DNA from: Paenibacillus polymyxa
GTDB taxonomy: Bacteria > Bacillota > Bacilli > Paenibacillales > Paenibacillaceae
NCBI RefSeq assembly: GCF_015710975.1
Contig: NZ_CP049783.1
Location: 3,577,501 to 3,641,500 of the forward strand
Length of the DNA stretch: 64,000 nucleotides
Direction: 5' to 3'
Of this stretch, positions 36,139 through 64,000 are shown in pieces (position 1 is the stretch's first letter; each line of letters starts with the position of its first letter). The notes beneath the pieces were generated by a model. The model was not told the DNA's origin and searched no databases. It worked only from the letters and a program-made list of their open reading frames with translations. The position numbers were made by a program, and so were the translations under genes.

Positions 36139-37071
36139 ATGAAGATAAACCTACTTTATCGGGATAAAAAAACGATCGGCGGGACGCGTAGGCTGATGCG
36201 GTTCCCTTTTCTACGGAACGAGGTGAATGGAACCCGGATCAGTGGCAAGAAATGCGCGATGCATTGGTGGCAAGGGGCTACAGCAGCAAGACGATTAAAG
36301 CATACATATCGCAAACGGAACGCTTTTTTGCAAGATTGCAAGGGACCGAAGCAAGCACAAATGATGCGACGGTGCAAAAATACGCGTCGGCGCTGCTCGA
36401 AAAAGGCCTTTCGCACGCTTATGTTAACCAAGCGATCAGCGCACTGAAATTTTACTTTCGCCATGTGCTAAAGCAGCCCAAATCCGCCGCCTATGTTCGT
36501 CCGAAAAAGGAGAGTAAACTGCCAGATGTGCTGTCCCTGAATGAGGTTATGCGTCTGTTGAAAGCAGTGAAAAATCTAAAGCATAAGGCTATTCTGTACC
36601 TGACGTATACATCCGGGCTACGGGTAAGCGAAGTGGTGAGGTTACGTCTTGAAGACTGCGACCGTGAACGGAAATTACTGAAAGTTCGTCATGGAAAGGG
36701 CAGGAAGGATCGGCAAACGCTGCTATCCGAAGCGGCTTTTGGCGGTGGTCGAGCAGTATATAGGGGTGGAGCGGCCAGAAGACTGGCTGTTTCCAAGGCA
36801 GAGGGAAGGCCGCCACCTGACGGAACGTTCAGCGCAGAAAGTGTTTGAAAAAGCGCTGGCTGAAGCGGGCATTCGCAAACAGGTGAGTATCCATTCGCTA
36901 AGGCATTCTTTTGCGACCCACTTGCTGGAGAATGGGATTGATCTTCGCTATATTCAGGAACTGCTAGGGCATCAGAGTGTGCGAACGACGGAGCGGTATA
37001 CACATGTGAGCAGACGGGACATTGGGCGGATTAAAAGTCCGTTGGATCGGATGAGCGGGCTGGAGGATTGA
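36139..37071 (+). pseudogene. tyrosine recombinase (XerA/IntI-like), interrupted by two frameshifts
   Basis: A strong RBS (AAGGAGG) precedes ATG 36139, reading MKINLLYRDKK. Homology continues in another frame from about 36192 (ADAVPFSTERG..NPDQWQEMRDALVARG) and again in a third from about 36733, giving a virtual protein of about 310 aa. Catalytic residues are all present: Arg in TSGLRVSEV, Lys in [24 protein letters not shown] and Tyr in TTERYTHVS. The end, [11 protein letters not shown], resembles IntI and XerA tails. The extra ~20-35 residue block that IntI proteins carry between the Lys and HxxR motifs is absent. It reads in the same direction as the cassettes, unlike standard integrons. 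Indels could be real or sequencing errors. Confidence 0.85.
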
Positions 37072-37176
37072 AACGCAGAAAGTGCGGGAATAAGGAGAAA
37101 AGTGCAGGATTTACGAAGTTCGTGAATATGACGAAGAGAGCATTCTTTCGAAAGTGCGTAAATAATACGTTATGAG
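37072..37176 (+). other. candidate attI site and array leader
   Basis: Between the recombinase stop and the first cassette. It ends in a core site GTTATGAG (37169-37176), cut expected after G37169. Two near-identical direct repeats, GAAAGTGCGGGAATAA (37078-37093) and GAAAGTGCGTAAATAA (37150-37165), plus a weaker third (37097-37110), could be recombinase-binding repeats like DR1/DR2 of attI1. It has no R''/L'' partner, as expected for attI and not attC. Confidence 0.6.
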
Positions 37177-37202
37177 AAATCAAATTAAAGGGGAAACCAA
37201 GA

Positions 37203-38102
37203 GTGGGAAAAAAACTAACTATATTTCTTGTGGATGGATCAGAAACAGGACCTAGAACAATTGAAATCGGTAATTGGTCAGGTAAGGCTTTATATTCACA
37301 GCGTTCTTCTTTGCCTAAAATCATAGAGCGACCCGAATTTAATAGACCAGGAGTCTATATTCTAAAATCTTTACCTAACAACGACAACTATAATGAACGC
37401 ATATACATAGGTGAAGCAGAGAATCTTAAAAAGAGATTAAAGCAACACTTAGCGGATTCAGAAAAGGATTTTATCGAATTTGTAGCCTTTATAAGCAAGG
37501 ATGAAATGCTTACTAAATCTCATATCAAGTATTTAGAATCTCGAATTATTTCTTTGTCTAAGGATGCGAAAACAGCCGAAATTGATAATGCTGTACAGCC
37601 TGAGTTAACAACTCTCCCTGAAGCTGATATTTCAGATATGGAATACTTTTTAGAGCAGATGAAGTTGATTTTTCCAGTAGTTAATTTTATGTTCTTGGTT
37701 CCTTCTACCCTTAAACAATCAAATGATAATATAATTTCATCACCTCAGGTTAGTAGTGATATCATATACACGCTAAAAAGCAAAAGAGCTTCTGCTAAAT
37801 TGATAGAAACTGAAAAAGGCTACGTAGTTCTATCTGGATCTCAAAGCTGTAAACAGACGTCAAGTTCAATTTCCGAGGGATGGATCAAGCAGAGAAACAA
37901 ATTGATAGAAACTGGAGTTCTGATTGATGGCGGGGAATTTTATATATTTAATGAGAATGCGATTTTCTCCAGTATCAGTGCAGCGACTGCTGTAGTATTA
38001 GGCCGTCAAGCAGCAGGCCCTGTAGAGTGGATAGATGTTAACGGAAGAACGTTTAAGCAAAATCAAGAAAAGAAATTTGAAAGTGAAAGCAATGAAGAGT
38101 AA
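37203..38102 (+). CDS. cassette 1: GIY-YIG nuclease-like protein with DUF4357-type C-terminus
   Basis: 299 aa, GTG start at 37203 about 9 bases after AAAGGGG. GIY-YIG motifs: GVYILKSL then RIYIGEAENLKKRLKQHL, followed by a Glu in HIKYLESRI at the expected catalytic position. The C-terminal ~90 residues (KRASAKLIETEKGYVVLSGS...) look like DUF4357, often attached to such nucleases in mobile elements. The first cassette, so nearest to any attI-borne promoter. Confidence 0.85.
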   Translation: MGKKLTIFLVDGSETGPRTIEIGNWSGKALYSQRSSLPKIIERPEFNRPGVYILKSLPNNDNYNERIYIGEAENLKKRLKQHLADSEKDFIEFVAFISKDEMLTKSHIKYLESRIISLSKDAKTAEIDNAVQPELTTLPEADISDMEYFLEQMKLIFPVVNFMFLVPSTLKQSNDNIISSPQVSSDIIYTLKSKRASAKLIETEKGYVVLSGSQSCKQTSSSISEGWIKQRNKLIETGVLIDGGEFYIFNENAIFSSISAATAVVLGRQAAGPVEWIDVNGRTFKQNQEKKFESESNEE

Positions 38103-38110
38103 TTTGACAT

Positions 38111-38228
38111 CTCATAACATACATATTCAAGCAGCGGCTCCGATGGAGCCTTGGTCTGCTGGAGGAATTCGAGAAGGAATTTCAGCAGACAACCTCTTCG
38201 GGGTTCATGAATACAGAAACGTTATCAG
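38111..38228 (+). repeat. attC1
   Basis: R'' CTCATAAC (38111-38118), R' GTTATCAG (38221-38228), 118 bp. L boxes TATTCA/TGAATA. Three internal hairpins A-B-C. R'' complements the start of cassette 1. Confidence 0.85.
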
Positions 38229-38253
38229 AAATCAGCGTGAAGTGGGTGAATAA

Positions 38254-38721
38254 ATGAATAGAGGCATAAGTTTTGAAATTCCAAATTCTTATGGAAACCA
38301 TCTTGGAGAGATTTTAAAGCCAATAGATATAACTACTTTCAGTTGGTTTATTGGTGGAGAAGAGTCATATTTTATTGTTGATGATACTTTAGGGGGTAGT
38401 CTCTTTCCAGACATGGTTACTGGAATGGATGGAGAAGATCTTAAAAAGATTATTGATTACAACAAGTACTACTTAATATTTGCGAATTTAAAGGCGTATC
38501 CAAAAGGAGCAAATATAATAGATGTAATGTCATATGAAGAATATATTGCGAGTGAGTGTCAGATTATTCTTCTTGTGATTGATAGCGTGTACATAACAGT
38601 TTACTGCAAAGACTTTGAAAAACTTGAGGACTTATATGATCACATAAAGAGAAAGGGATATAAATCTCTGGAATATATAACTGATGAAAATGATACAAGG
38701 ACAAGACTATCAGTTTGGTGA
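38254..38721 (+). CDS. cassette 2: DUF2691-like protein
   Basis: 155 aa from ATG 38254. Starts MNRGISFEIPNSYGNHLGEILKPIDI..FSWFIGGEESY, which resembles DUF2691, a small Bacillus family of unknown function. Soluble alpha/beta. The gene starts 32 bases after the recombination point, typical of cassette genes here. Confidence 0.65.
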   Translation: MNRGISFEIPNSYGNHLGEILKPIDITTFSWFIGGEESYFIVDDTLGGSLFPDMVTGMDGEDLKKIIDYNKYYLIFANLKAYPKGANIIDVMSYEEYIASECQIILLVIDSVYITVYCKDFEKLEDLYDHIKRKGYKSLEYITDENDTRTRLSVW

Positions 38722-38772
38722 TTAAAAACAAAAAAATGATTGTTGTAAGTAATTCAAGGAAGACGCTGAAAT

Positions 38773-38890
38773 CGGATAACATAATATTCAAGCTGCGGCT
38801 CTAATGGAGCCTTGGTCTGCGGAATGAATTTCGGAGAGGCATTTCAGCAGACAACCCCGTTGGGGTTCATGAATATAGAAACGTTATACG
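38773..38890 (+). repeat. attC2
   Basis: R'' CGGATAAC, R' GTTATACG (38883-38890), 118 bp, A-B-C type. R'' differs by one base from the complement of the cassette 2 start (TTATCAG). Confidence 0.8.
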
Positions 38891-38923
38891 ACAGAATCAA
38901 AATGAAAAAGAGCCAGAAGGCTC

Positions 38924-39211
38924 TCAATCTAAATATATATGTAATTCGTTATGCAGGTGAAGAGCGTCCTTAAAACCTTGCAAATAAATTTCACGTTCTA
39001 AAATAGCTTGAACAGAAAGCTCAGCATCATCGTAAAGGAATAGGGTCTTCTGTATATTCTCCGGTACTCCTTCATGTAACTGCTTGAAGTAGAGATTCCG
39101 CTCGGATGAGAACCGGTTGTAGCTGGAGTTGTTTTTGATAAGCTCGCCATATAAAAATTCAATTCGAGTCTGAATCAGTGAATCAAGTAAGACTTCTAAA
39201 GAATTATGCAT
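38924..39211 (-). CDS. cassette 3: DUF6809-like small protein, antisense gene
   Basis: 95 aa from ATG 39211 (GGATGGTG upstream); an ATG 12 bases earlier is possible. Sequence MHNSLEVLLDSLIQTRIEFLYGELI..RNLYFKQLHEGVPENIQKTLFLYDDAE..QGFKDALHL has the layout of DUF6809 proteins. Divergent from an XRE-type regulator with a 171-base AT-rich gap, so the pair carries its own promoters. A second copy is in cassette 30. Possibly a regulator-controlled or toxin-antitoxin-like module; unproven. Confidence 0.7.
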   Translation of the reverse strand: MHNSLEVLLDSLIQTRIEFLYGELIKNNSSYNRFSSERNLYFKQLHEGVPENIQKTLFLYDDAELSVQAILEREIYLQGFKDALHLHNELHIYLD

Positions 39212-39382
39212 TTTGAACACCATCCAACGTATTTGATTTTATGAATAAAAGTTCAACTTATTAAATATAATTTTAACATAACAAACAATTAAGTCAATAC
39301 ATGTTGAAGATGTTTTTGATAAAGAAAATATACTTTCATATAATTAAAGAAAAATTCACTTGATGTGTGAAAGGAATATCAG

Positions 39383-39586
39383 ATGATTAGTTATAAACCT
39401 TTTCAAAAATTATTGATCGACAGAGAGATTAAGAAGCAGGATTTATTGAAAATGACAGGTATCTCGTCTGCAACAATGGCGAAACTCAATACGAACGAAT
39501 ATGTGTCATTAGAAGTGATTGATAAATTATGTACGGCTTTAGGTTGTCAGCCAGGAGATTTATTGGAACATATAGCAGAACAATGA
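39383..39586 (+). CDS. cassette 3: small XRE/Cro-type HTH regulator
   Basis: 67 aa from ATG 39383, RBS GAAAGGAA. A complete YozG-like HTH: KKQDLLKMTGISSATMAKLNTNEYVSLEVIDKLCTALGCQPGDLLEH. Divergent from the DUF6809-like gene; probably represses the shared promoter region, whose 39224-39382 stretch is very AT-rich. Compared with the copy in cassette 30, one A is missing near 39581, which shortens the C-terminus by three residues. Confidence 0.88.
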   Translation: MISYKPFQKLLIDREIKKQDLLKMTGISSATMAKLNTNEYVSLEVIDKLCTALGCQPGDLLEHIAEQ

Positions 39587-39635
39587 CAGAATAGAATCAA
39601 GAATGAATGTTGGTTAATCGAAGAAGTGATTCCAT

Positions 39636-39752
39636 CGTATAACATAATATTCAAGCAGCGGCTCCTTTGGAGCCTTGGTCTGCGAGAAGATTTCAGGGAA
39701 GCATTTCAGCAGACAACCCCTTCGGGGTTCATGAATACAGGAACGTTATGTG
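39636..39752 (+). repeat. attC3
   Basis: R'' CGTATAAC, R' GTTATGTG (39745-39752), 117 bp, A-B-C type with TTCG-containing hairpin C. R'' complements the cassette 3 start exactly. Confidence 0.85.
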
Positions 39753-39812: not shown

Positions 39813-41759
39813 ATGGAAAAAATAAAGTTTTTCTCACCGGATGATTTATCTTGCGGAATGAACTTGCAAAAGAGTGAAGTTATTTTAAATGAATATTACC
39901 AAGGTACAAGAAAGATCGAAAATATTAATGATGCTATCGAAATTTACAATATCAAAAAATTCTTTGATAACAAATTATATTTAACAAAATGGACGCCAAC
40001 GGATATCGAAAACTTTGAAAAAATTATCGCTAACATTTTTGGTACGGTAGCTAGGTATGTAAGGTCTGTTGATGACAAAAATTTAGAGAATACATACCAA
40101 GAAACAGTTTTTTATTATAAATCAGATTTTTGGAGGCTTATTGATAAGTTCAAAACATATCAAAATATCTCAGTAGATATTATTGAGAAGCTTCTTTTTT
40201 CTTCTAAAGTTAGACTGAATGAAATATTAAAAAGTAAAAATCTCACTGAGTATTAAGGAATCGAATTAAAAAAATATATGCTTAGTGAAAAATCGACTGC
40301 GGAGATTCTTTTGGATAAATATGAGATAAAACATTTTAGAGAGAAAGAAGAAATATATCTTCCAAAAGAATTAAGCAATCACGACAAAGAAATTATACTT
40401 TTAAATTATATAGATAGTGATGTGCCTAATTTAAACTACTTGAGACTTATTAAAAATATTCAAAGTAATAAAGATAAGATTGAAGTCTCTCCAAGAACTT
40501 TATTAAAGGCTAAAAGAAAAGCAGAAGAGCAAGAAGAACGGTTTTTTGAGAAAAGTTCAGGTATGGAAATGGAAACCACCGTTATATTCTCAAAACACGC
40601 GGAGAAGGAAGTATTTCTAGACAATGAGGGGGTAAAAACTACAGCGACCTATAGTTCTAAATGGATTGAAGATAATTTAGATCAAGCTACTTTACTCAAT
40701 AATTTTATATATATGTTTGAATTTGTTGATAGACAAATGAGATGTGCTTTTGTCAATAAAGAAAGTGAGATGGGAGCCTTTGAAAGGTTTGCATTCATGT
40801 CTGCTCAGACTGGATATACCAAAGGCGTTGCATTTGACCATAAAAATATTTTTGCATTACTTCAGATGAATGGTTACTACAATCAACTTTTTAGTAATGG
40901 AATTAGATTAGAAGAGGTCATTGAATGGTTTTTTGTTGAATATCTTTTTGAAGAATTTAATGCATTTGGTTTTAAAGTTGCTATGCCCTCAGCCAATTCA
41001 ACCTTTCTTGAAAAATGTACTGCTGTGATGCCCGCATTAGAATCAACTCTTAAGCAGTTTATTTTATACGTTGAAGAAAGACAAATTGATTTTGAGTTGC
41101 TGGAAATTCGTTCTGAACATTTAGTGTATAAAAATATTCCTTCTTTAATTGATAAGAAATATGTATATGGTATTGGTGAAGAATTTAAACAGGTAACTTT
41201 TTTGCTCTTTTCAGATCAAAGTGGACTAGGGTATGTTGGTGAAAATCGAAAAACTTATAATGATTTCTTCGATTTATTAAGAAATGAACAATTAAAAATG
41301 AACGATTTTCTATCATTTGATATGCCTCGTGTTCAGTGGTTAATTGACCAAGACTATTTGAAAGTTGACAGTGGCGGATTCCTTGTTTTTTCAGACAATC
41401 TTCTCGTGGCAATACTTTATGATTTGTACAAGAACGATGTAGTTGCTTATTGGAATTGTCCACCTGAAGCAAGAGAGAAACTAGATCAGTTAGCAGCTAG
41501 AAATGTTATAGAATTTGAGAATACACTTTTTTCAAGACCGGAATATCATTACATTAATTATTTACTTAACAAATCTCAATTTAATAATGGACTAGATTTA
41601 AGGAACAAGTACAGTCATATGCAACCATTTTCCGAGGATGAAGAGAAAACGCATGCTCATAATTATTATGTCTTTTTAACTTTGTTTATTGTCACAGTGA
41701 TAAAAATAAACGATGAATTTTGTAGTGAATTATCTTCAGAAAGTATCAACTTCACATAA
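39813..41759 (+). pseudogene. cassette 4: ~648-residue protein with DUF4209/HEPN-like C-terminus, interrupted by in-frame TAA
   Basis: ATG 39813 follows GGAGAGAT and opens a 147-codon frame ending at TAA 40254-40256. The same frame then stays open to 41759 without other stops, and the next ATG (40278) has no RBS. The two parts read as one continuous helical protein, so a single nonsense mutation is likely. The C-terminal half contains DLRNKYSHM, an RX4H motif as in DUF4209/HEPN proteins, then a hydrophobic helix. The final stop lies inside the attC R'' box. Function unknown; an RNase-like or sensing role is a guess from the motif. If the TAA is genuine, the downstream part (493 codons) may be expressed alone. 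Confidence 0.65.
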
Positions 41760-41832
41760 CATAATATTCACGCTGCGGACATTCGTCGTACACTCGGCAT
41801 ACGCCGGGTCGTGAATACAGGAACGTTATCTG
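41753..41832 (+). repeat. attC4
   Basis: R'' CACATAAC, R' GTTATCTG (41825-41832), 80 bp. Shortest class: hairpins A and C only, B missing. L boxes TATTCACG/CGTGAATA pair perfectly. R'' complements the cassette 4 start. Confidence 0.87.
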
Positions 41833-42314: not shown

Positions 42315-42478
42315 CAGATAACAAAATATTCACGCATCGGGCCATTCGGCCCTCGGTCCGGCAGAGACATTTTGGGGAGTGGAAGCAGCCGGACAACCCT
42401 GCACTGGCTAAGTCCGTCGGACCCGGCGCGTTCGCTCCTTAAGCCAGTGAGGGTTCGTGAATACAAGAACGTTAGGCG
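42315..42478 (+). repeat. attC5
   Basis: R'' CAGATAAC, R' GTTAGGCG (42471-42478), 164 bp, A-B-C with a long branched C arm (CACTGGCTAAG / CTTAAGCCAGTG). R'' complements the cassette 5 start. Confidence 0.87.
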
Positions 42479-43051: not shown

Positions 43052-43215
43052 CGCCTAACACCAAATTCATGCTTCGGGCATACGCCCTGGGTCCGGCAGG
43101 GGGATTTCAAGGAAGCGAAAGCAGCCGGACAACCCCGCACTGGCTAAGTCTGACGACCGGTTCGCTATCGTTCACTTAAGCCAGTGAGGGTTCGTGAATT
43201 CAAGAACGTTATGTG
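43052..43215 (+). repeat. attC6
   Basis: R'' CGCCTAAC, R' GTTATGTG (43208-43215), 164 bp, long C arm. R'' complements the cassette 6 start. Confidence 0.87.
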
Positions 43216-43651: not shown

Positions 43652-43811
43652 ACATAACATCGCATCTACGCTGCGGGCGTTGCCCTTGGTTCGCTAGAAG
43701 TGGAAAGCAGAGAAGCCGGGATCAGCTCACAACCCTGCGAGGCTAAGTCCGTTGGACCCGGCGTTTTGCGCCTTAAGCCTCTCGGATTCGTAGATACAGG
43801 AATGTTATATG
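43652..43811 (+). repeat. attC7 (variant L boxes)
   Basis: R'' CACATAAC, R' GTTATATG (43804-43811), 160 bp. L boxes are ATCTACG/CGTAGAT instead of ATTCACG/CGTGAAT: both arms changed together. R'' complements the cassette 7 start. Confidence 0.85.
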
Positions 43812-44470: not shown

Positions 44471-44594
44471 CATATAACATAATATTCACGCATCGGGCAT
44501 ACGCCCTCGGTCCGGCAGAGGGATTTCAGAGAGCAGAGGCAGCCTTGACACACCTGGCATACGTCAGGTGTCGTTAATACAAGAACGTTAGACG
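44471..44594 (+). repeat. attC8
   Basis: R'' CATATAAC, R' GTTAGACG (44587-44594), 124 bp, A-B-C; hairpin C ACACCTGGC/GTCAGGTGT. The L' box reads CGTTAATA, one change from CGTGAATA. R'' complements the cassette 8 start. Confidence 0.85.
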
Positions 44595-45248: not shown

Positions 45249-45346
45249 CGTCTAACATAATATTCACGCTGCGGACATTCGTCCTTGGTCCGGCATTCGC
45301 CAGACACTCAGCATATGCTGAGTCGTGAATACAGGAACGTTATCGG
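45249..45346 (+). repeat. attC9
   Basis: R'' CGTCTAAC, R' GTTATCGG (45339-45346), 98 bp; hairpin B reduced to a short GTCCGGC/GCCAGAC stem. R'' complements the cassette 9 start. Confidence 0.86.
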
Positions 45347-45718: not shown

Positions 45719-45885
45719 CCGATAACAACACATTCACGTATCATCCGACTGGCACCGACCTCGGTCCGTAGGAGGTATTTTGAGGAAGTGGAATCAGCGG
45801 ACAACCCTGCACCGACTAAGCGCATCACGCTCAGGCCTTCGGCCTTTAAGTCGGTGAGGGTTCGTGAATGCAGCAACGTTAGATG
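45719..45885 (+). repeat. attC10
   Basis: R'' CCGATAAC, R' GTTAGATG (45878-45885), 167 bp, long C arm. L boxes CATTCACG/CGTGAATG show a compensated T-A to C-G change. R'' complements the cassette 10 start. Confidence 0.87.
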
Positions 45886-45925: not shown

Positions 45926-46816
45926 ATGATTGAATATAATATCGAAACGATTAATAGATTGTTTCAACAGCACCATATAAATGATGAGATTGTAAGTTTT
46001 CAAAGCCTATCAGGAACAACTTCTGGAATAGTTTTAAAATTAGAATCAAAGCATGGAATTAAGTACATTTTGAAGTCTGATACTCCAATCCAGATTGAAT
46101 TAGTTGAACATTTGCTTCATACCTATAAGCATTCAGTATTATTACCTAAAGTTCTTTTATCAGCCCAAGATAAGTCATATTTTGTTTATACATTCATTGA
46201 TGGTATAACTCATTTTAATCGTAGTAAAAAAAGAAATTGGATGAGAATCCTAGTAAAAGAACTGCTCAACCAATATGTTGAACATCAGGGGGAAAATACA
46301 TGGGGAAGAATAGAATTCCCTCGAGAAACATGGAAGGAATTTAATGAAATTAGCATTGAAGAAGCAAGAATGAATCTGAAGAATGTATTATCGCCAGAAG
46401 ACTATCAATACGTAAAATTAATGTCAAAAAAACTATTTAATGATGATTCAAAGCAAGGAAATAAGTATTTATTGCATGGGGATACAGGCGTTCATAATTT
46501 TGTTTTTAATGATTCAACACTAATTGGTGTGATTGATCCGTCACCGATGGTGGGACCAATCATATATGATTTTTTATATGCATTTTGTTCTTCACCTGAT
46601 GATATTAATACTGATACTTTGTTTGCCGCATCGGATTTACTTGAACAAGGTAATGTTGAGAGAACCAGATTAATTAAGGAAACACTGATACATCTTTATT
46701 GTCGAATAGGACTTAGTGTACGGCATCATCCAAATGACTTGACTGAATATATACAGGCATGGGGATATTGGAAACAATTGTGTAAGCAAATCGATGAAGG
46801 CACTGGCATCATCTAA
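45926..46816 (+). CDS. cassette 11: APH/choline-kinase-like phosphotransferase
   Basis: 296 aa from ATG 45926. Kinase-like fold: ATP-lysine region KYILKSDTPIQIE, hinge YFVYTFIDG, catalytic loop LLHGDTGVHNFVF (Brenner motif HxDxxxxN) and metal Asp in GVIDPSPMVGPIIYDF. Such proteins phosphorylate aminoglycosides, macrolides or small metabolites; this one is not close enough to a known resistance enzyme to call. Stop codon lies within the R'' box. Confidence 0.85.
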   Translation: MIEYNIETINRLFQQHHINDEIVSFQSLSGTTSGIVLKLESKHGIKYILKSDTPIQIELVEHLLHTYKHSVLLPKVLLSAQDKSYFVYTFIDGITHFNRSKKRNWMRILVKELLNQYVEHQGENTWGRIEFPRETWKEFNEISIEEARMNLKNVLSPEDYQYVKLMSKKLFNDDSKQGNKYLLHGDTGVHNFVFNDSTLIGVIDPSPMVGPIIYDFLYAFCSSPDDINTDTLFAASDLLEQGNVERTRLIKETLIHLYCRIGLSVRHHPNDLTEYIQAWGYWKQLCKQIDEGTGII

Positions 46817-46971
46817 CAAAATATTCACGCATCGGGCCATCCGGCCCTCAGTCCGGCAGAGGAATTTCGGTGAAGCGAGTCCAGCAGACAACCCTGCACT
46901 GGCTAAGTCTGACGACCCGCGCAAGCGCGCTTAAGCCAGTGAGGGTTCGTGAATAGAGAAAACGTTATCTG
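46810..46971 (+). repeat. attC11
   Basis: R'' CATCTAAC, R' GTTATCTG (46964-46971), 162 bp, long C arm. R'' complements the cassette 11 start. Confidence 0.87.
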
Positions 46972-47494: not shown

Positions 47495-47574
47495 CAGATA
47501 ACATAATATTCACGCTGCAGGCATACGCCGGACACCCAGCATACGCTGGGTCGTGAATACAGGAACGTTATACG
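47495..47574 (+). repeat. attC12
   Basis: R'' CAGATAAC, R' GTTATACG (47567-47574), 80 bp, hairpins A and C only. R'' complements the cassette 12 start. Confidence 0.87.
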
Positions 47575-48118: not shown

Positions 48119-48216
48119 CGTATAACATAATATTCATGCATCGGACATTCGTTCTCGGTCCGGCAGGAGCCGGACACCCAGCATGCGCTAGGTCGTGGAT
48201 ACAGGAAGGTTATATG
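48119..48216 (+). repeat. attC13
   Basis: R'' CGTATAAC, R' GTTATATG (48209-48216), 98 bp, short hairpin B (GTCCGGC..GCCGGAC). L boxes TATTCATG/CGTGGATA have one mismatch and one wobble. R'' complements the cassette 13 start. Confidence 0.83.
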
Positions 48217-48797: not shown

Positions 48798-48917
48798 CAT
48801 ATAACAGTACATTCACACTTCGGACAAGCCTCGATTCGGTAGATGATTTTCAAGGAGTAGAGGCAGCCGGACACACCCAGCATTCGCTGGGCGTCGTGAA
48901 TATAGGAACGTTAGCTG
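48798..48917 (+). repeat. attC14
   Basis: R'' CATATAAC, R' GTTAGCTG (48910-48917), 120 bp, hairpin A degenerate. R'' complements the cassette 14 start. Confidence 0.83.
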
Positions 48918-50807: not shown

Positions 50808-51419
50808 ATGAATTCTAATGATTTTTCATGGAAAGAAGTCTATTCATACTGGAAGCACTTTATTGAAGAGTATAGCTGTAGATCTATTAACGAACAAAGT
50901 TTTAAAAAAATTAAAATACAACCACAGTTAAATCCTAATTTTAATATTGGAACTGAAATAATAGATTGGTGGCCAACCAATGAAGTTGAATATAGAACAA
51001 AGAAACTAAATGATCGAGGCATTTTAGGTGCTGATTGGGATACAGTAGTCGGTTTTAATCGAACAGCTGAAATGTTATGGAACAACAAAGAAAGTAATGA
51101 GCAGCAAGCCCTGATTTGGATTGCTGCCGGACTGAATGAAATATTATCTCATCTTCCAGAAGAATGGAGAGGTGATCCATATAGATTTATCTATGAAACC
51201 AAATTGAATATCATGAAAGAATTTGAAAATAGAGATATGTGGTCGTGGCATGGATCAACCAGAAAATTTTTGCCTGTTACCGTTAATAAATTTATGGAAT
51301 TATACTCTAAACCAATGGAGATATATAACTTAATGAATATCATAGCCATTGATAATGTCTTTTCAAGAAATGCATGGACATTAGTTTGTGTTTCTCGAGA
51401 AGAAGATGACTCCGTATAA
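50808..51419 (+). CDS. cassette 17: hypothetical protein, 203 aa
   Basis: ATG 50808 with GAGGAG sets the start; the upstream extension is attC16. Not recognised. Trp-rich, mixed fold (EIIDWWPTNEVEY, EEWRGDPYRFIYETKLNIMKEFENRDMW). The stop codon is within the R'' box of the following site. Confidence 0.7.
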   Translation: MNSNDFSWKEVYSYWKHFIEEYSCRSINEQSFKKIKIQPQLNPNFNIGTEIIDWWPTNEVEYRTKKLNDRGILGADWDTVVGFNRTAEMLWNNKESNEQQALIWIAAGLNEILSHLPEEWRGDPYRFIYETKLNIMKEFENRDMWSWHGSTRKFLPVTVNKFMELYSKPMEIYNLMNIIAIDNVFSRNAWTLVCVSREEDDSV

Positions 51420-51536
51420 CATAATATTCACGCATCGGGCATACGCCCTCGGTCCGGCAGAGGGATTTCAGAGAAGCAGAGGCAGCCGGACACACCTGGC
51501 ATACGTCAGGTGTCGTGAATACAAGAACGTTAGGCG
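51413..51536 (+). repeat. attC17
   Basis: R'' CGTATAAC, R' GTTAGGCG (51529-51536), 124 bp, textbook A-B-C with intact GTCCGGC/GCCGGAC B stem. R'' complements the cassette 17 start. Confidence 0.88.
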
Positions 51537-52427: not shown

Positions 52428-52610
52428 TGCCTAACGATGTGTTGACACATCGGCGGACAAGCCGCCTCGGTCCCGGAAGATAAGTCGAAGAAGCTATTGC
52501 AGGGACACATGCATTCACCCAACCGCATCGCGGCCGGCTGAGATCGTGCTAGTCGCACTACTCTGGCAGCTTAGGGTGAATGGACGTCGTGAACACGGAA
52601 ACGTTAGGCG
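52428..52610 (+). repeat. attC18 (divergent)
   Basis: R'' TGCCTAAC, R' GTTAGGCG (52603-52610), 183 bp, the longest. L boxes GTGTTGAC/GTGAACAC and the internal arms differ from the other sites. R'' matches the cassette 18 start with one wobble. May have come from another lineage. Confidence 0.75.
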
Positions 52611-53167: not shown

Positions 53168-53331
53168 CGCCTAACAACAAATTCACGCTTCGGGCATACG
53201 CCCTCTGTCCGGCAGGGGGATTTCAAGGAAGCGGAAGCAGCCGGACAACCCTGTACTGGCTAAGTCTGACGACCCGTTCGCTATCGCTCACTTAAGCCAG
53301 TGAGGGTTCGTGAATACAGGAACGTTAGCCG
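53168..53331 (+). repeat. attC19
   Basis: R'' CGCCTAAC, R' GTTAGCCG (53324-53331), 164 bp, long C arm; close to attC6, the site of its paralogous cassette. R'' complements the cassette 19 start. Confidence 0.87.
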
Positions 53332-53972: not shown

Positions 53973-54090
53973 CGGCTAACATAATATTCAAGCAGCGACT
54001 GTGTGAAGCCTTGGTCTGCAAGGTGGATTTCGAAGAGGTATTTCAGCAGACAACCCCTGATGGGGTTCATGAATACAGAAACGTTATGTG
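53973..54090 (+). repeat. attC20
   Basis: R'' CGGCTAAC, R' GTTATGTG (54083-54090), 118 bp, A-B-C with degenerate A. R'' complements the cassette 20 start. Confidence 0.85.
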
Positions 54091-54525: not shown

Positions 54526-54689
54526 CATATAACATCGCATCTACGCTGCGGGCGTTGCCCTTGGTTCGCTAGAAGTGGAAAGCAGAGAGAGAAGCGGGAT
54601 CAGCTCACAACCCTGCGAGGCTAAGTCCGATGGACCCGGCGCTTTGCGCCTTAAGCCTCTCGGATTCGTAGATACAAGAACGTTATCTG
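54526..54689 (+). repeat. attC21 (variant L boxes)
   Basis: R'' CATATAAC, R' GTTATCTG (54682-54689), 164 bp. Shares ATCTACG/CGTAGAT arms with attC7. R'' differs by one transition from the complement of the cassette start. Confidence 0.82.
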
Positions 54690-55211: not shown

Positions 55212-55308
55212 CAGATAACAATATATTCACGCTGCGGGCATACGCCCTTGGTCCGGCATACGCCGGACACCCAGCTACGCTGGGTCGTGAATACAGGAAC
55301 GTTATAAG
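55212..55308 (+). repeat. attC22
   Basis: R'' CAGATAAC, R' GTTATAAG (55301-55308), 97 bp, short B. R'' complements the cassette 22 start. Confidence 0.86.
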
Positions 55309-56526: not shown

Positions 56527-56649
56527 CTTATAACATTATATTCAAGCATCGGGCACATGCCCTCGATCCGGCAGAGGGATTTCAAGGAAGTGGGGCAGCT
56601 GGATAAATCTGGTATTCGCCAGGCGTCGTGAATACGAGAACGTTATGTG
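56527..56649 (+). repeat. attC23
   Basis: R'' CTTATAAC, R' GTTATGTG (56642-56649), 123 bp, A-B-C. R'' complements the unusual cassette 23 start TTATAAG exactly. Confidence 0.87.
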
Positions 56650-56688: not shown

Positions 56689-57339
56689 ATGAATAACACT
56701 AAATCGTGGCTGGAAGAGATAATAGAGGCATTAAATGAGCTTGGTGGTGAAGGGACATTACTAGATATTTATACTCAGATTGAGGATCGGAAGCAAATGG
56801 AGTTAACAAAGGCTTGGAAAAATACTGTAAGAAGAACTATTTATGATAATACGAAAGATAGTGTAGGGAGACGAGATGTTTTTTATTCTGTTGAAGGTAA
56901 AGGTAATGGCATATGGGGGTTAAAGGATTTTGAAGCTAACAAAGAAAATATTGAAATAACTGAAGATGATACCGGATTTCCTGAGGGCAAGAAAAAATTA
57001 AGGTTGCATTTAAGTAGAGAGAGACGACCAGCGGTCGTAAGAGAGGCGAAAAAAATATTTAAAGAGAAAAACGGTGGTAATTTGTTTTGTGAGATATGCG
57101 GTTTTAATTTTTCTTCTGTATACGGTGAGCTAGGAGAGGACTTTATCGAAGGTCACCATGTAATTCCAGTATCCGAGTTGAATGAAGATCATAAAACCAA
57201 GGTAGAAGATATCGCAATGGTTTGTTCAAACTGCCATAGAATGCTGCACAGAAGAAGACCTTGGTTAACTAAAGATAAATTGAGAGATCTAATAAAACAT
57301 TTAGCATTTCAGGAAGTCAAGGAGCATCACATAACATAA
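56689..57339 (+). CDS. cassette 24: winged-helix (HARE-like) HNH endonuclease
   Basis: 216 aa from ATG 56689 (AAAAAGGAC upstream). Residues 6-80 resemble a HARE/winged-helix domain found on restriction and defence proteins (LNELGGEGTLLDIYTQIEDR...IWGLKD). HNH domain at 130-190: C134EIC137, EGHHVIPVSEL with H156/H157, MVCSNCHRMLH. Catalytic and zinc residues intact. Likely a restriction-type nuclease with no methylase in the cassette. The reading frame runs through the attC R'' box before stopping. Confidence 0.85.
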   Translation: MNNTKSWLEEIIEALNELGGEGTLLDIYTQIEDRKQMELTKAWKNTVRRTIYDNTKDSVGRRDVFYSVEGKGNGIWGLKDFEANKENIEITEDDTGFPEGKKKLRLHLSRERRPAVVREAKKIFKEKNGGNLFCEICGFNFSSVYGELGEDFIEGHHVIPVSELNEDHKTKVEDIAMVCSNCHRMLHRRRPWLTKDKLRDLIKHLAFQEVKEHHIT

Positions 57340-57424
57340 TATTCACGCTGCGGACATTCGTCCTGGGTCCGGCATCACCGGACACCCAGCATGCGCTGGG
57401 TCGTGAATACGGAAACGTTAGGCG
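57328..57424 (+). repeat. attC24
   Basis: R'' CACATAAC, R' GTTAGGCG (57417-57424), 97 bp, short B. R'' complements the cassette 24 start; overlaps the end of the nuclease gene. Confidence 0.86.
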
Positions 57425-58090: not shown

Positions 58091-58100
58091 CTGTCCGCAT

Positions 58101-58247
58101 CGCCTAACATCACATTCCTACTGCGGGGCATTCGCCCTTTGGTCGCCGGAGGCATTCAGGGGAGAGGATTCAGGCGACACATTGATTTCCCTAAGATAAG
58201 AGCTTATTAAGGTAAACATAACGTCAGGAATGTACATACGTTAGCTG
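58101..58247 (+). repeat. attC25 (variant L boxes)
   Basis: R'' CGCCTAAC, R' GTTAGCTG (58240-58247), 147 bp. L boxes ACATTCCT/AGGAATGT: sequence unlike other sites but perfectly complementary. R'' complements the cassette 25 start. Confidence 0.84.
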
Positions 58248-58307: not shown

Positions 58308-59147
58308 TTATTTAATATTCCCAATGTAGCGTTTTAAAGTAGGAACAATTTCATTTGCTATTTTTTCAATGTGCATGTCACTCTCTCGGACAAAATACTT
58401 AAGGTCAGTTAAGAACAATTCTAGTTTATCGGGAGAAACATCATGATTTACAACTGATATAATAAGTACATCTTTTTTTGAAGAATATCTGTTAAGGAAA
58501 TTAGTTAATTCAGTATCACACCAATTAGAATTTAGAAAATCATTTGTTATCCAAAAGATAACTGCTGCTGATTTTTTAATTCCTCTTTGAATGGCTTTAG
58601 TAATAGATTCTCCATAATCAATGTTAATTTTATCAAACCATACGGGTAATCCGGCTCCATTTATATAGGGAATTAAATCTTCAATTTCTGATTTATCCTT
58701 AGATGCATGACTTAAAAATACAGGTAATTGATTTCCTAAAGCAGTACTAAATTTGTAACCTATATTTTCAAGTTCTTCTTTCTCCGGAAATGCAAATAAA
58801 TGAGATATTTGAGATTCAATTGGAATTCCGTCCATTAAGTTAATGCTATTAAATCTTCTGTTACCCATTTCAGTAAACAATTCACTCATTGTGATATCTG
58901 ATCTATAACGAAGTCCAGCACTTAACATTAATTCTTTCATAGTATTGATATGGCCTTCAAGTGGATCGTCATAACCAATTACAACGAAAAATTCTAAACA
59001 AAAGGGATTTGAATTTGTAAATATACTAATCATCTGTAGTGACGATGAATCTTGCTCTGTCATGAGGTTTTGTAGGACTGAAATGACTGGTTTTCTAACA
59101 CCGTAATCACATTCCCAAACATAATCCTTACTTAATCTACTTGTCAT
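58308..59147 (-). CDS. cassette 26: TIR-domain protein, antisense to the array
   Basis: 279 aa from ATG 59147, upstream RBS-like TAAGGAG. Residues ~141-270 form a TIR domain: PVFLSHASKDK (beta A), WFDKINIDYGESI (BB loop), AVIFWITNDFLNSNWCDTEL with candidate catalytic Glu213. Bacterial TIR proteins are NAD-consuming effectors of antiphage systems such as Thoeris or stand-alone guards. The N-terminal 140 residues are unknown and may be the sensor. One of only two gene types carried in reverse orientation, so it needs its own promoter. Confidence 0.85.
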   Translation of the reverse strand: MTSRLSKDYVWECDYGVRKPVISVLQNLMTEQDSSSLQMISIFTNSNPFCLEFFVVIGYDDPLEGHINTMKELMLSAGLRYRSDITMSELFTEMGNRRFNSINLMDGIPIESQISHLFAFPEKEELENIGYKFSTALGNQLPVFLSHASKDKSEIEDLIPYINGAGLPVWFDKINIDYGESITKAIQRGIKKSAAVIFWITNDFLNSNWCDTELTNFLNRYSSKKDVLIISVVNHDVSPDKLELFLTDLKYFVRESDMHIEKIANEIVPTLKRYIGNIK

Positions 59148-59229: not shown

Positions 59230-59392
59230 CAGCTAACGAAATATTCACGCATCGGAGCCTGGCGGCTCCTCGGTCCGCAAGAGGAATTTCGGGGAAGTGG
59301 AATCAGCGGACAACCCTGCGAACCTAACCGCAGTCGCGGCCGGGGCTATGCCCCTTAAGGTTCTCGGGTTCGTGAATGCGAAACGTTATACG
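59230..59392 (+). repeat. attC26
   Basis: R'' CAGCTAAC, R' GTTATACG (59385-59392), 163 bp, long C arm. R'' complements the cassette 26 start. Confidence 0.87.
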
Positions 59393-60036: not shown

Positions 60037-60158
60037 CGTATAACATTATATTCACGCATAGCATACGCCCTCGGTCCGGCAGAGGGATTTCGGGGAAGTA
60101 GAAGCAGCCGGACACACTTGGCATTCGCCAAGCGTCGAGAATATGGGAACGTTATACG
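60037..60158 (+). repeat. attC27
   Basis: R'' CGTATAAC, R' GTTATACG (60151-60158), 122 bp; hairpin A half lost, L' reads CGAGAATA. R'' complements the cassette 27 start. Confidence 0.8.
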
Positions 60159-60181
60159 AAATTCAAAGACGGGGGAGTTTT

Positions 60182-60965
60182 ATGGAAGAGTGGAAAATAG
60201 CCATATTGAGTTATTTGGATTATTGCTTAGAAAACTATATAGATAATCAAAAAATGAAAAATTTATTATATCCTTTTAATTTTAATAACCACTATACGGA
60301 TCGAATGAGTGAAAAATCAAGGCTGTATACTATGAATGTTGAGAAAAATTTGAAGGAACTAATGTTGATTTATTATAAAATAATTAACTTTTATGATGAG
60401 TATAAAGAATCGGATATGTCACGTTATAAATATTTAATTAAAACTGAGTTGGAGCATTTTGTATTGCGTTATAGGATTATTGTTAATAAGATCGCTTTAA
60501 TTAAAAAGGAGTCTAAAATAATTGATTTTTCAAGTGTTGATACTAGATATTTTGAAGAATCAATAGAGTATGAACAACTAATAGGAATTCGCAACAGTAT
60601 TGCTCATGAGAGTATAAGGAGTCATGTTTTTGATACAACTGAAGACAAGAGACTATATTTTCAGTTTTATACTAATCGAAGTACATGAAGTTTTTGTAAA
60701 TCCGCTCGGCTCAGAAATTTATGATTTGAAGTATTGGCTATCTTGGATGTTAATACTCTTACTAAACTTTATAGATGATATTATTAGAAATATATTTGTA
60801 TCAATGCAAAGAATTTGCGATGAAGATGGAAGTATTTTCAATGAAATTACGAAATGTGATCAAATGATGAATAATAGACATTCGATATTGGATACATATT
60901 TTGATGACATTCCGTTATTTATAAGTGAAATAAGAGAATTGAGGAATCACATAATCAAGTTTTAG
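60182..60965 (+). pseudogene. cassette 28, first gene: HEPN-like protein, frameshifted near 60680
   Basis: ATG 60182 with GGGGGAG. The first frame (to 60688) ends NRST; the rest (EVFVNPLGSEIYDLKYWLSWMLILLLNFI...) is in the +1 frame to 60965. RNSIAH at 137-142 is an RX4H motif. Clearly related to the next gene: TELEHFVLRY and YWLSWMLILLLNF align with NELEHFILRY and YFITWMLNLLMNY there. Real inactivation or sequencing indel. Confidence 0.7.
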
Positions 60966-61045
60966 AGTAAAGAAAAAGTAAGGTTAAAGACATCACAAAC
61001 TCAATTTGCTTATGTTAATGATTAATTCTTAAAGGAGAGGCTGTG

Positions 61046-61756
61046 TTGGTGAGTAACTACAGTAATAAAATAGCTAATGGGTTTAGAGTGATTTTGGGTT
61101 CGGGTGAACTGTATAGACCTACATATCCTCTTAATTTCATAGAAAATATATGTGAAAATGATAAGGTTGAGGATCTCGATATTGCTGGTTCAGTTGAAAA
61201 AGAAATTCGATATTTATTTTGTATATATGTAAAGATTCTAACCGAATTTGAAAATTATAAACTTGACAAGTTGAATCTTTATGGTCACTTAGTATCTAAT
61301 GAATTGGAACACTTTATTCTAAGATATCCTGTAGTATTCGATATTATAGAGAAACATTTTTTATGTGTAGTAGGTGATAATTTCAAAACTATTGAAGAAG
61401 TTGTTCCGCTAGATAATGAACTTAAAAGTATGAAAAAAGTGAGAAATGAGATAATTCACCATGGGGCAGAATGCATTGTTAAAGGTGATATATACGGTCC
61501 TGGTTTTAGAATTTCTTTCAATCGTCATTCAATGGAGAATCATCAGCCTAATCGATTTCTTTTACTTGATAATCATAGTGAATTGTATAATGTTACTTAT
61601 TTTATTACGTGGATGCTAAATTTATTGATGAATTACCTTATTCTTTTTTTTAAAACTGCAAATGAAATAAGAACAAATATGCACTTAATTACTGAAAAAC
61701 AAATTAATGAAATTAAAAGTATGGATAAACGCTATGGGGGGCATTTTCGAAAATAA
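61046..61756 (+). CDS. cassette 28, second gene: intact HEPN-like paralogue
   Basis: About 236 aa; TTG 61046 is chosen by spacing to AAAGGAG, with GTG 61043 and 61049 as alternatives. RNEIIH at residues 133-138 (KKVRNEIIHHG) is the RX4H motif; C-terminal hydrophobic helix YFITWMLNLLMNYLILFF. Related to the frameshifted gene just upstream. No attC separates the two, so this is a two-gene cassette or a fusion of two that lost the middle site. Confidence 0.7.
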   Translation: MVSNYSNKIANGFRVILGSGELYRPTYPLNFIENICENDKVEDLDIAGSVEKEIRYLFCIYVKILTEFENYKLDKLNLYGHLVSNELEHFILRYPVVFDIIEKHFLCVVGDNFKTIEEVVPLDNELKSMKKVRNEIIHHGAECIVKGDIYGPGFRISFNRHSMENHQPNRFLLLDNHSELYNVTYFITWMLNLLMNYLILFFKTANEIRTNMHLITEKQINEIKSMDKRYGGHFRK

Positions 61757-61886
61757 GATTTTTCAACAATGAAGCGGAAATTTATAAGGGGAATTTGGAA
61801 GAACTATTGGTTCATACTATAATTTATGAAAAAGCTATTGAAAATTGTCTAACAGATAGTTACCAAAATTACTGAGGAATACCACT

Positions 61887-61911
61887 TCGGTAACTGTCGG
61901 AACGTTAGTTG
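61887..61911 (+). repeat. attC28, degenerate remnant
   Basis: Only 25 bp: TCGGTAAC, then TGTCGGAAC, then GTTAGTTG. The outer boxes and a GGAAC-type spacer remain, but L boxes and all hairpins are gone. Boundary complementarity fails for the cassettes on both sides. Confidence 0.6.
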
Positions 61912-61945
61912 AAATTCAGAAAACGTTTAATAGAAAGGAACAAAA

Positions 61946-62890
61946 ATGCCAATTCTAAATTTTAAAGAAATACCTCAAGCTAATGTATCAGACGGTAATC
62001 AAGACATGTTTGAGCAATTTGCACGAGATTTTTTTCTTATGCTCGGATTTGAAATTGAAACGGGACCTGATCGTGGGCAAGATGGAGGGCGTGATCTAAT
62101 AATTATAGAAAAAAGAACCGGTATTGCTGGCGTTTCCACTATAAAATGGTTGGTTAGTTGTAAACATAAAGCTCACTCTGGTCGCTCTGTGACTGATAAT
62201 GACGAACAAGATGTAATTGATAGATTAACGGCGCATGATTGCAATGGTTTTATTGGATTTTATTCATCTGTACCGAGTGCACCCTTGGCTAGGAAATTAG
62301 AAGCTTATAAAAATCGTTACGAGATACTAATATTTGATAACGAAAGAATAGAACAATCCCTTCTTGTTGGTGAAGATGGAAGATTCCTTTGCAGGAGATA
62401 CTTTCCTAATTCTTTTTACATATGGGAAACCACTGCATTTCGACCGACAGTGTTACTTTCTCAATATGAGCCTTTACGCTGTAAGAAGTGTGGACGTGAC
62501 TTATTAGAAGAAGAGGTAATCAATAACGAGCAGGGCATTGTGGTTTTTGTTGAGAAGTACAATAAGGACAACTTGGATACTGAAGAGATTGTAGATATTT
62601 ACTGGACCTGTAAAGGAGAGTGTGATCGTGAAATTGAAAATATTTATTTAAGTAAAGGCTTCAATACTAAATGGGAGGACATTTCTGATATTGCTATCCC
62701 TGTTAAGTATCTGCAATGGAATTTAGCAGTATTAAATAGATTAGAAGAAGGAATGGATAACTATAGTCGCCAGGCATACGATAATCTTAAACACTTTATC
62801 ATCCGGGTTTCACAATTAGTATTAAAAGAACAAACCGATAAGCAACGCGAAAGATTCAAGATGCTTCAAGAGATTCCAGAGTATTTCTAA
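61946..62890 (+). CDS. cassette 29: Mrr-like restriction endonuclease-fold protein
   Basis: 314 aa from ATG 61946, RBS AAAGGAAC. N-terminal restriction-endonuclease fold: FEQFARDFFLMLGFEIETGPDRGQDGGRDLIII with Asp50, and KWLVSCKHKAHSG with Lys73. A zinc-ribbon-like CKKCGRDL (and later CKGECDREI) follows near residues 175-230, then a helical tail. Family: Mrr_cat-like nucleases that restrict modified or foreign DNA. Catalytic pattern intact. Confidence 0.82.
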   Translation: MPILNFKEIPQANVSDGNQDMFEQFARDFFLMLGFEIETGPDRGQDGGRDLIIIEKRTGIAGVSTIKWLVSCKHKAHSGRSVTDNDEQDVIDRLTAHDCNGFIGFYSSVPSAPLARKLEAYKNRYEILIFDNERIEQSLLVGEDGRFLCRRYFPNSFYIWETTAFRPTVLLSQYEPLRCKKCGRDLLEEEVINNEQGIVVFVEKYNKDNLDTEEIVDIYWTCKGECDREIENIYLSKGFNTKWEDISDIAIPVKYLQWNLAVLNRLEEGMDNYSRQAYDNLKHFIIRVSQLVLKEQTDKQRERFKMLQEIPEYF

Positions 62891-62905
62891 GAAGGCCCTG
62901 AACAT

Positions 62906-62985
62906 CGTCTAACATAATATTCACGCTGCGGGCATACGCCCTGGGTCCGGCATACGTCGGGTCGTGAATACAGGAACGTTATACG
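62906..62985 (+). repeat. attC29
   Basis: R'' CGTCTAAC, R' GTTATACG (62978-62985), 80 bp; hairpin A intact, B and C merged. R'' does not fit the cassette 29 start (TTAGTTG), in keeping with the broken attC28. Confidence 0.8.
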
Positions 62986-63018
62986 ACAGAATCAAAATGA
63001 AAAAGAGGCAGAAGGCTC

Positions 63019-63306
63019 TCAATCTAAAGATATATGTAATTCGTTATGCAGGTGAAGAGCGTCCTTAAAACCTTGCAAATAAATTTCACGTTCTAAAATA
63101 GCTTGAACAGAAAGCTCAGCATCATCGTAAAGGAATAGGGTCTTCTGTATATTCTCCGGTACTTCTTCATGTAACTGCTTGAAGTAGAGATTCCGCTCGG
63201 ATGAGAACTGGTTGTATCTGGAGTTGTTTTTGATAAGCTCGCCATATAAAGATTCAATTCGAGTATGAATCAGTGAATCAAGTAAGACTTCTAAAGAATT
63301 ATGCAT
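63019..63306 (-). CDS. cassette 30: DUF6809-like protein, duplicate of cassette 3
   Basis: 95 aa from ATG 63306. Differs from the cassette 3 protein at a handful of residues (e.g. HTRIESL for QTRIEFL). Again divergent from the XRE regulator with the same AT-rich spacer, so gene pair, spacer and attC were copied together. Confidence 0.7.
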   Translation of the reverse strand: MHNSLEVLLDSLIHTRIESLYGELIKNNSRYNQFSSERNLYFKQLHEEVPENIQKTLFLYDDAELSVQAILEREIYLQGFKDALHLHNELHISLD

Positions 63307-63477
63307 TTTGGACACCATCCAATGTATTTGATTTTATGAATAAAAGTTCAATTTATTAAACATAATTTTATCATATCGAATAATTGAGTCAACACATGTT
63401 GAAGATGTTTTTGATATAAAAAATATACTTTCATATAATTAAAGAAAAATTCACTTGGTGTGTGAAAGGAATCTCAG

Positions 63478-63690
63478 ATGATTAGTTATAAACCTTTTCA
63501 AAAATTATTGATCGACAGGGAGATTAAGAAGCAGGATTTATTGAAAATGACAGGTATTTCGTCTGCTACAATGGCGAAACTCAATACGAACGAATATGTA
63601 TCATTAGAAGTGATTGATAAATTATGTGCGGCTTTAGGTTGTCAGCCAGGAGATTTATTAGAACATATAGCAGAACAAATGACAGATTAG
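63478..63690 (+). CDS. cassette 30: XRE/Cro-type HTH regulator, duplicate of cassette 3
   Basis: 70 aa from ATG 63478, RBS GAAAGGAA. HTH identical to the cassette 3 copy apart from one Thr to Ala change. Ends HIAEQMTD; the extra three residues come from one additional A in the AAA run, so this is probably the ancestral form. Confidence 0.88.
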   Translation: MISYKPFQKLLIDREIKKQDLLKMTGISSATMAKLNTNEYVSLEVIDKLCAALGCQPGDLLEHIAEQMTD

Positions 63691-63731
63691 AATCAAGAAT
63701 GAATGTTGGTTAACCGAAGAAGTGATTCCAT

Positions 63732-63849
63732 CGTATAACATAATATTCAAGTAGCGGCTCCGTTGGAGCCTTGGTCTGCGAAGTGGATCTCGAAGAGGCA
63801 TTTCAGCAGACAACCCCTTTGGGGTTCATGAATACAGGAACGTTATGCG
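63732..63849 (+). repeat. attC30
   Basis: R'' CGTATAAC, R' GTTATGCG (63842-63849), 118 bp, A-B-C, near-identical to attC3. R'' complements the cassette 30 start. Confidence 0.86.
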
Positions 63850-63883
63850 TAATTATTGCGATTCTAAAGAAAGGAGAAATACA

Positions 63884-64000
63884 ATGGATCAAATCAAATA
63901 TCCGATTGGTCAATTTCAACCCATAAACAATCTTTCAAATGATGAAATAATAAATCTTATTAAACAAATTCCTGAATTAATTAAGCGATTAAATACATTG
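63884..64000 (+). CDS. cassette 31: YfiT/BstA-type DinB-superfamily protein (partial, 5' end)
   Basis: ATG 63884 after AAAGGAG; 39 codons to the window edge. MDQIKYPIGQFQPINNLSNDE matches the start of YfiT-like putative metal hydrolases / bacillithiol S-transferases (KYPIGKFEP). The metal-binding His residues lie beyond the edge, so the call rests on the N-terminus only. Confidence 0.6.
   Translation, partial: MDQIKYPIGQFQPINNLSNDEIINLIKQIPELIKRLNTL

Follow-up and report, generated by a model that had tools for sequence, protein, structure and literature searches.

A chromosomal gene-cassette array in Paenibacillus polymyxa as a putative integron variant with an insert-less integrase

A 64,000-nucleotide stretch of the chromosome of the soil bacterium Paenibacillus polymyxa (NCBI RefSeq assembly GCF_015710975.1, contig NZ_CP049783.1, positions 3,577,501 to 3,641,500 of the forward strand; hereafter the window, with coordinates counted from its first letter) carries a long array of gene cassettes separated by structured repeats. 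The locus opens with the remnant of a tyrosine recombinase (integrase) gene at 36139-37071 (+ strand), followed by an attI site at 37115-37172 (+), in which the insertion point G^TTA lies at 37169, and by the cassette array itself at 37170-64000 (+). Thirty sites with the architecture R''-L''...L'-R', all on the + strand between 38112 and 63849, bound 30 complete cassettes running from the G at 37169 to the G at 63842. Beyond the window the sites run on for ~16 kb to about coordinate 79650, becoming sparser and less conserved. The original prediction, made from the letters of the window, had described a tyrosine recombinase gene followed by 30 structured sites in one orientation, and had proposed a sedentary chromosomal integron of a Paenibacillus-specific lineage. 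The 30 sites and their single orientation are borne out, with arms far above chance frequency. The recombinase gene is indeed present and matches PF00589 ahead of the array, but it is broken, with its frame split and about 200 bp missing.

The L'' arm TATTCACG has 27 matches on both strands as compared to 1.97 expected, a count reached in 0 of 100 shuffles. While the TAAC and GTTA motifs that had been attributed to every site are found in 30/30 (both motifs also served to pick the sites), the exact L'' (TATTCACG) and exact L' (CGTGAATA) are each found in only 13/30, the remaining sites carrying variants. One additional exact arm match sits in attI, outside the 30 sites. A sequence-blind stem search, defined as YAAC...GTTR with an 8-bp stem between, returned 13 forward matches in 37001-64000 (shuffled mean 0.3, maximum 2 in 10 shuffles) and none in window positions 1-36000. 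The same search gave 12 matches on the other strand of 37001-64000, because the YAAC...GTTR pattern is nearly its own complement. Site lengths range from 58 to 175 bp, and in unconstrained folds of either strand most sites form inner hairpins enclosed by an outer stem, which a few of the folds lose. Among 172 sites from loci L082-L099 and the window, the L'-R' spacer was 3 bases longer than the R''-L'' spacer in all 89 sites in which it was measurable. Site picking had itself relied on motifs spaced in this way, so the difference is biased and carries no weight here as evidence, although it could mark the reacting strand.

In order along the + strand, the attC sites lie at 38112-38228 (attC 1), 38774-38890 (2), 39637-39752 (3), 41754-41832 (4), 42316-42478 (5), 43053-43215 (6), 43652-43811 (7), 44472-44594 (8), 45250-45346 (9), 45720-45885 (10), 46811-46971 (11), 47496-47574 (12), 48120-48216 (13), 48799-48917 (14), 49350-49468 (15), 50616-50778 (16), 51414-51536 (17), 52429-52610 (18, with a divergent left arm), 53169-53331 (19), 53974-54090 (20), 54527-54689 (21), 55213-55308 (22), 56528-56649 (23), 57329-57424 (24), 58102-58247 (25), 59231-59392 (26), 60038-60158 (27), 61847-61911 (28), 62907-62985 (29) and 63733-63849 (30). 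Twenty-nine of the 30 belong to one broad family, the exception being attC 28, which is short and of another, divergent type. It resembles the attC sites of Fusibacter (locus L176) in its CTTCGGTAA and GGAACGTTA parts and may have come with a cassette of foreign source.

A cut between G and TTA makes a specific prediction about such an array. The bases following GTTA would travel with the cassette, and the start of each cassette should then be complementary to the R'' that closes the same cassette, not to the adjoining R'. Over the 3 variable bases, the cassette start matched its own-end R'' in 26/30 cassettes (25/30 at four bases), as compared to 3/30 when one half of a site was matched to its other half and to a mean of 3.0 and a maximum of 13 of 30 when starts were permuted in 20,000 trials. 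The same pattern was found across 18 congeneric loci plus the window, where 141 adjacent cassettes gave 97 own matches, 20 same-site matches and 23 shuffled matches; site picking was stricter here, so that 23 window cassettes entered, 19 of them matching. We read this complementarity between own end and own start as the mark of recombination at G^TTA.

The recombinase-array gap points to the same position. In 7/7 related species, conservation of this gap is 93-100% as far as the G of GTTA, after which it drops to ~0.5 (majority base in blocks of 10), because the first cassette, compared by eye, differs in each species. Upstream of the recombinase, 6/6 loci compared match the window locus at 91-94%. 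A second group of nine loci, in which the recombinase is about 57% identical, has another attI with the same drop, strong conservation there being limited to the last 20-30 bases.

Exchange of cassettes between species was followed in a subset of loci comprising 394 cassettes from 59 arrays, with neighboring R' sites 250-2500 bp apart and families defined at 75% identity over 80% of length. Paenibacillus maysiensis had been entered twice, and without the duplicate the set holds 58 arrays and 388 cassettes. Of 36 cassette families, four (F14-F17) are due to this duplicate and three (F32, F33 and F36) are within-array duplications, so that 29 families are common to different arrays. With the duplicate left out, the most widespread family, F1, is represented by 10 copies in nine arrays. 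For 117 of 123 same-family pairs, those with differing or unassigned neighbors (duplicate again left out), identity over the first three bases after GTTA was 0.98/0.95/0.93 as compared to 0.47/0.31/0.32 in random pairs. At the far end identity stops at GTTA, with values beyond it of 0.50/0.40/0.33 as compared to 0.47/0.33/0.33. Same-family pairs thus show little excess identity outside the cassette bounds. Cassettes are exchanged as units bounded at GTTA, and, in this between-species comparison, the predicted boundaries are respected; the sequences leave the position of the cut within GTTA unspecified.

The recombinase gene of this strain lacks about 200 bp near 36181 that are present in intact relatives, and a frameshift near 36735 splits its PF00589 domain over two frames (36528-36737 and 36730-37011). 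The gene is also broken in one near relative, and is open in five relatives of the same group, where it encodes 379 residues. Two recombinase matches at E <= 1e-60 were found in this genome when the five best candidates were scored, both inside the broken gene. With its recombinase broken and no further close copy seen in the genome, the array is probably frozen in this strain. Intact relatives consist of an N-terminal region of ~95 residues, a SAM-like core-binding domain and a catalytic domain. The N-terminal region has no confident Pfam match; of three proteins, two gave HARP-like matches (E 0.056 and 0.021). R, H, R, H and Y positions, which we take to be the catalytic residues, are invariant in 15 aligned relatives. 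By sequence, the nearest solved structures are VchIntIA (2a3v) and archaeal Xer proteins. A fold search with an AlphaFold model also placed 2a3v and XerA first, although the model is weak (pTM, the predicted template modeling score, 0.48; template modeling score by query length 0.38-0.42) and adds little. A LexA-type box (GAAC-N4-GTTC) upstream of the recombinase was found in none of nine loci.

Sites and recombinase lie together well beyond this strain. Among the best 80 recombinase loci of a longer list, R' matches were found downstream of the recombinase in 55, including loci of Paenibacillus, Saccharibacillus and Cohnella, and were missing upstream in 75; many of the 25 loci without a downstream R' are contig ends or distant hosts. 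Searching 75 congeneric genomes for R' with at most one mismatch gave 1189 matches, as compared to 12 for the reversed pattern. At least one match was found in 74/75 genomes, at least five in 69/75 and at least 10 in 56/75, the count of at least five being safer because certain isolated matches turn up with identical letters away from any array and look fortuitous or like parts of coding sequence. With the N-terminal half, the recombinase was found in 44/75 of these congeners at E <= 1e-30.

Taken as a whole, the locus is very probably a sedentary chromosomal integron-like system run by a dedicated recombinase without the IntI-specific insert, and in kind it appears to be an integron variant with an insert-less integrase. 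Integron-like working is proposed because the own-cassette rule, the shared attI with differing first cassettes, and the GTTA-ended families in differing contexts come together. Under this model, a dedicated tyrosine recombinase of ~370-380 residues, with the ~95-residue N-terminal addition and no IntI insert, would cut folded attC sites at G^TTA and excise or capture one-gene cassettes. New cassettes would enter at the attI beside the recombinase gene, so that the array would grow from its attI end. We infer that the array recombinase does the recombination work, and attC presumably reacts as a folded single strand. The proposal of a sedentary chromosomal integron holds as regards layout, GTT(A) boundaries and cassette mobility. 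It does not hold for the enzyme, which has no insert and groups apart from five IntI sequences.

Several observations weigh against this interpretation. The recombinase of this very strain is broken. Other host tyrosine recombinases, of which the genome has 15 Pfam matches including the two in the broken gene, are possible actors. Cassettes 60151-61904 and 61904-62978, which end in attC 28 and attC 29, clearly fail the own-cassette rule, and those starting at 38221 and 54083 (ending in attC 2 and attC 21) miss the match by one base. Thirty-one of 75 congeners have no recombinase match at E <= 1e-30, and 23/75 have none at E <= 1e-60 with another alignment, which does match eight of those 31. 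Thirty of the 31 nevertheless hold at least one R' match, for which reason loss of the recombinase seems to be common among congeners. Lastly, in some small distant arrays the own match does not exceed the same-site match (0 vs 1/1 in L250, 1/1 vs 1/1 in L252, 2/2 vs 2/2 in L254 and 0 vs 1/1 in L155).

The rAID-1 clusters of Bacteroidales consist of a tyrosine recombinase and an array of immunity genes of the type VI secretion system, and the array could be a Firmicute version of these instead of a general-purpose integron. A Parabacteroides plasmid (NZ_OY725747.1) carries an insert-less recombinase at the end of an array of Tdi1 and SMI1/KNR4 immunity genes, which we take to be of rAID-1 type. 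Its intergenic sites have the form TAAC ... ATTA with core A^TTA, and 7/7 of its cassettes end in the complement of their own start over 8-11 bases including TTA (one array, by eye). In both kinds of array, one end is occupied by an insert-less recombinase from a common group, and cassette ends match their own starts. In a 37-row tree, the insert-less group of 24 rows comprises Paenibacillaceae, clostridia, Fusibacter, Chryseobacterium and Parabacteroides (the last with a single sequence), at a support of 93/87 that is not full and falls below the program's mark for firm support. In contrast to the A^TTA core and immunity cargo of the Bacteroidales arrays, the Paenibacillus array has a G^TTA core, lies in another phylum and has broad cassette content, the 30 window open reading frames (ORFs) scanned with Pfam giving neither an SMI1 nor a Tdi1 match. 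A Firmicute version of rAID-1 is improbable, if not negligibly so, and it is more likely that Paenibacillus and rAID-1 arrays are branches of one wider system.

A canonical IntI integron, that is, a sedentary chromosomal integron newly found in Bacillales, would fit the anatomy well. As in IntI integrons, attI lies beside the integrase gene, one-gene cassettes form a long array in one orientation, attC is built as R''-L''-L'-R' with its boundary at GTT, and the cassette content (GNAT, NUDIX, HNH and unknown genes) is similar; moreover, the Vibrio integrase 2a3v is the best solved relative by both sequence and fold search. The enzyme itself argues otherwise. Alignment to 2a3v breaks where the IntI chain has about 42 more residues, and the distance from GKGxKDR to RHSFAT is 62 residues in 70 of the 75 recombinases readable among the 80 loci, and 58-64 in the other five. 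In IntI this distance is 102-103 residues, as measured in three of five IntI, two of them near-identical, the two further IntI having a variant motif that puts them outside the measurement. The IntI-specific insert of ~40 residues is thus missing in 75/75 readable relatives. Six of six insert-less recombinases fall below the 265 bits that NCBI sets as cut-off for integron integrases in TIGR02249 (191.5-224.4), as compared to 400.6 and 446.7 for two of two true IntI, and the five IntI rows form their own tree group at 100/100, in a tree of few rows with several long branches. Sinorhizobium, IS91-linked Emticicia, Leptospira phage, P. glacialis and Gemmatimonadetes proteins have no firm place in it. 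The missing insert, the scores and the separate tree group rule out IntI membership for the recombinase, and a canonical IntI integron is accordingly an unlikely description of the locus. Four of the six insert-less recombinases do pass the NF040815 cut-off of 220 (224.8, 222.6, 240.2 and 221.5), with Fusibacter (199.4) and Parabacteroides (215.2) below it. That model is named recomb_XerA_Arch, 'site-specific tyrosine recombinase/integron integrase', but such a name is in itself no sign of an array.

The neighboring recombinase might instead be a bystander, if XerC/XerD of the host moved the cassettes or if the repeats recombined homologously with one another. Such a scheme would fit the broken gene in this strain and the genomes that have arrays of sites but no recombinase match. 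Against it, breakpoints fall at GTTA instead of being scattered along the repeats, the recombinase has next to it a single fixed attI that is followed by a different first cassette in every species, and sites are found downstream of the recombinase in three genera. We consider it highly unlikely. That the sites are ordinary structured intergenic repeats (terminators or BOX/REP-like elements) lying between genes by chance can be set aside almost completely: although strongly structured, they obey the own-cassette test, which refutes this idea, bound shared cassettes with common ends, match no Rfam family at gathering score, and are not scattered genome-wide on both strands, 24 of 26 R' matches with at most one mismatch lying in the array, all forward, and the other two forming one mini-array. 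This mini-array of two attC sites (C1:635167-636697, locus L081, - strand) is far from the main array, and the sequence after it begins like the widely shared cassette F1.

Within the family, the recombinase was found in 143/394 genomes and 14/19 genera at E <= 1e-60, fragments included. In a sample of the phylum it was found in 34/398 genomes and 28/266 genera, 30 of the 34 lying outside the family, although some of these matches have no N-terminal region and may be other recombinases. Hosts named among the best 80 loci are Paenibacillus, Saccharibacillus, Cohnella, Alkaliphilus, Natronincola, Halonatronum, Acididesulfobacillus and Fusibacter. Long-stem sites with own matches (4-5 of 5 bases) were seen in three genomes of other families, in 4/4 (L248), 6/7 (L251) and 4/4 (L256) cassettes as compared to same-site agreements of 1, 2 and 0, and Fusibacter ferrireducens gave 4/4 own matches and 0 same-site. 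The idea of a lineage restricted to Paenibacillus has to be given up, as recombinases of the same clade occur in Saccharibacillus and Cohnella and in remoter Bacillota such as Alkaliphilus, Natronincola, Fusibacter and Acididesulfobacillus, some with attC-like sites, and relatives are carried on Bacteroidota plasmids; recombinase and attC-like sites in distant Bacillota rule it out. Arrays are not shown for every relative, because the sequence-blind search gave no site in 8/20 regions fetched around phylum-sample recombinases (and a single site in 5/20) or in 7/13 distant loci tested from the best-80 list; some of the fetched stretches end with the contig. Plasmid and phage collections gave 1287 and 256 records, respectively, at E <= 1e-15. 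All were <60% identical, and no close mobile copy of the recombinase was therefore seen in these collections. The Chryseobacterium array is unproven, because insertion elements lie among its genes and the generic own-cassette test gave 0/1.

The IntegronFinder 2.0 survey reports one complete integron in Firmicutes, which made up 22% of the genomes searched, and CALIN, or attC clusters without integrase, for a few Firmicutes genera (PMC9024848). In the portion of PMC4909258 considered here, Paenibacillus is limited to a weak protein match. Like CALIN, the arrays of this strain and of many congeners come with no intact integrase seen. Unlike CALIN, relatives of the array do have an integrase, of a type that an IntI profile would be expected to miss. 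Unlike IntI, the Paenibacillus integrase has no insert, carries the additional ~95-residue N-terminus and scores below the NCBI cut-off, and the core is GTTA. These observations suggest that a gene-capture system thought to be very rare in this bacterial branch is common there, with a different enzyme. We lean, with some reserve, towards a second great integron branch, in which insert-less recombinases range across Bacillota and reach Bacteroidota, with genus-wide attI/attC arrays in Paenibacillus and the immunity arrays of Bacteroidales included. If true, the IntI insert would not be needed for handling folded attC sites, a non-IntI enzyme would allow the purpose of that insert to be tested, and integrons of Firmicutes would be common, having been overlooked or counted as integrase-less clusters. 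The 69/75 genomes of one genus with at least five sites would change the known range of integrons, and the literatures on integrons and on interbacterial immunity arrays would be joined. The arrays would also supply a large pool of cassettes with candidate defense genes.

The 30 window ORFs scanned against Pfam are a chosen set and not every cassette ORF. At E <= 0.01, 16 matched and 14 did not, the matches comprising GIY-YIG/DUF4357, DUF2691, HTH_26, GNAT acetyltransferases, a weak APH, NUDIX, HNH twice, TIR, Mrr and DUF5677. PADLOC was compared with ten ORFs, four of which matched: PDC-S14 (8.4e-94), PDC-S56 (4.1e-188), TIR families and a weak type IV restriction match. The first cassette gene (37203-38102, +) encodes GIY-YIG and DUF4357 domains and strongly matches the candidate defense family PDC-S14, and the gene at 40278-41759 (+) strongly matches the candidate family PDC-S56. 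A TIR-domain gene lies at 58308-59147 on the - strand and a gene with an Mrr_cat restriction-endonuclease domain at 61946-62890 (+). Several cassettes thus appear to have defense or accessory functions, and the array may be a store of phage-defense genes. F1, the most widely shared cassette, lies at 38883-39745 (+), with a second copy at 62978-63842, and contains a small HTH_26 gene (39383-39586, +) and a weakly DUF6809-like ORF on the - strand. A few cassettes have a - strand ORF, these being 58308-59147, 38924-39223 and 63019-63318.

Relatives of this recombinase, annotated as short tyrosine recombinases, were also noticed directly upstream of two genes, tet(X5) on an Acinetobacter plasmid (L217, 804-1469) and blaVEB-3 on a Klebsiella plasmid (L221, 742-1353). 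These are perhaps remains of an insert-less integron from which the genes came. In Emticicia (L219, 992-2813), a related tyrosine recombinase is followed directly by an IS91-family transposase.

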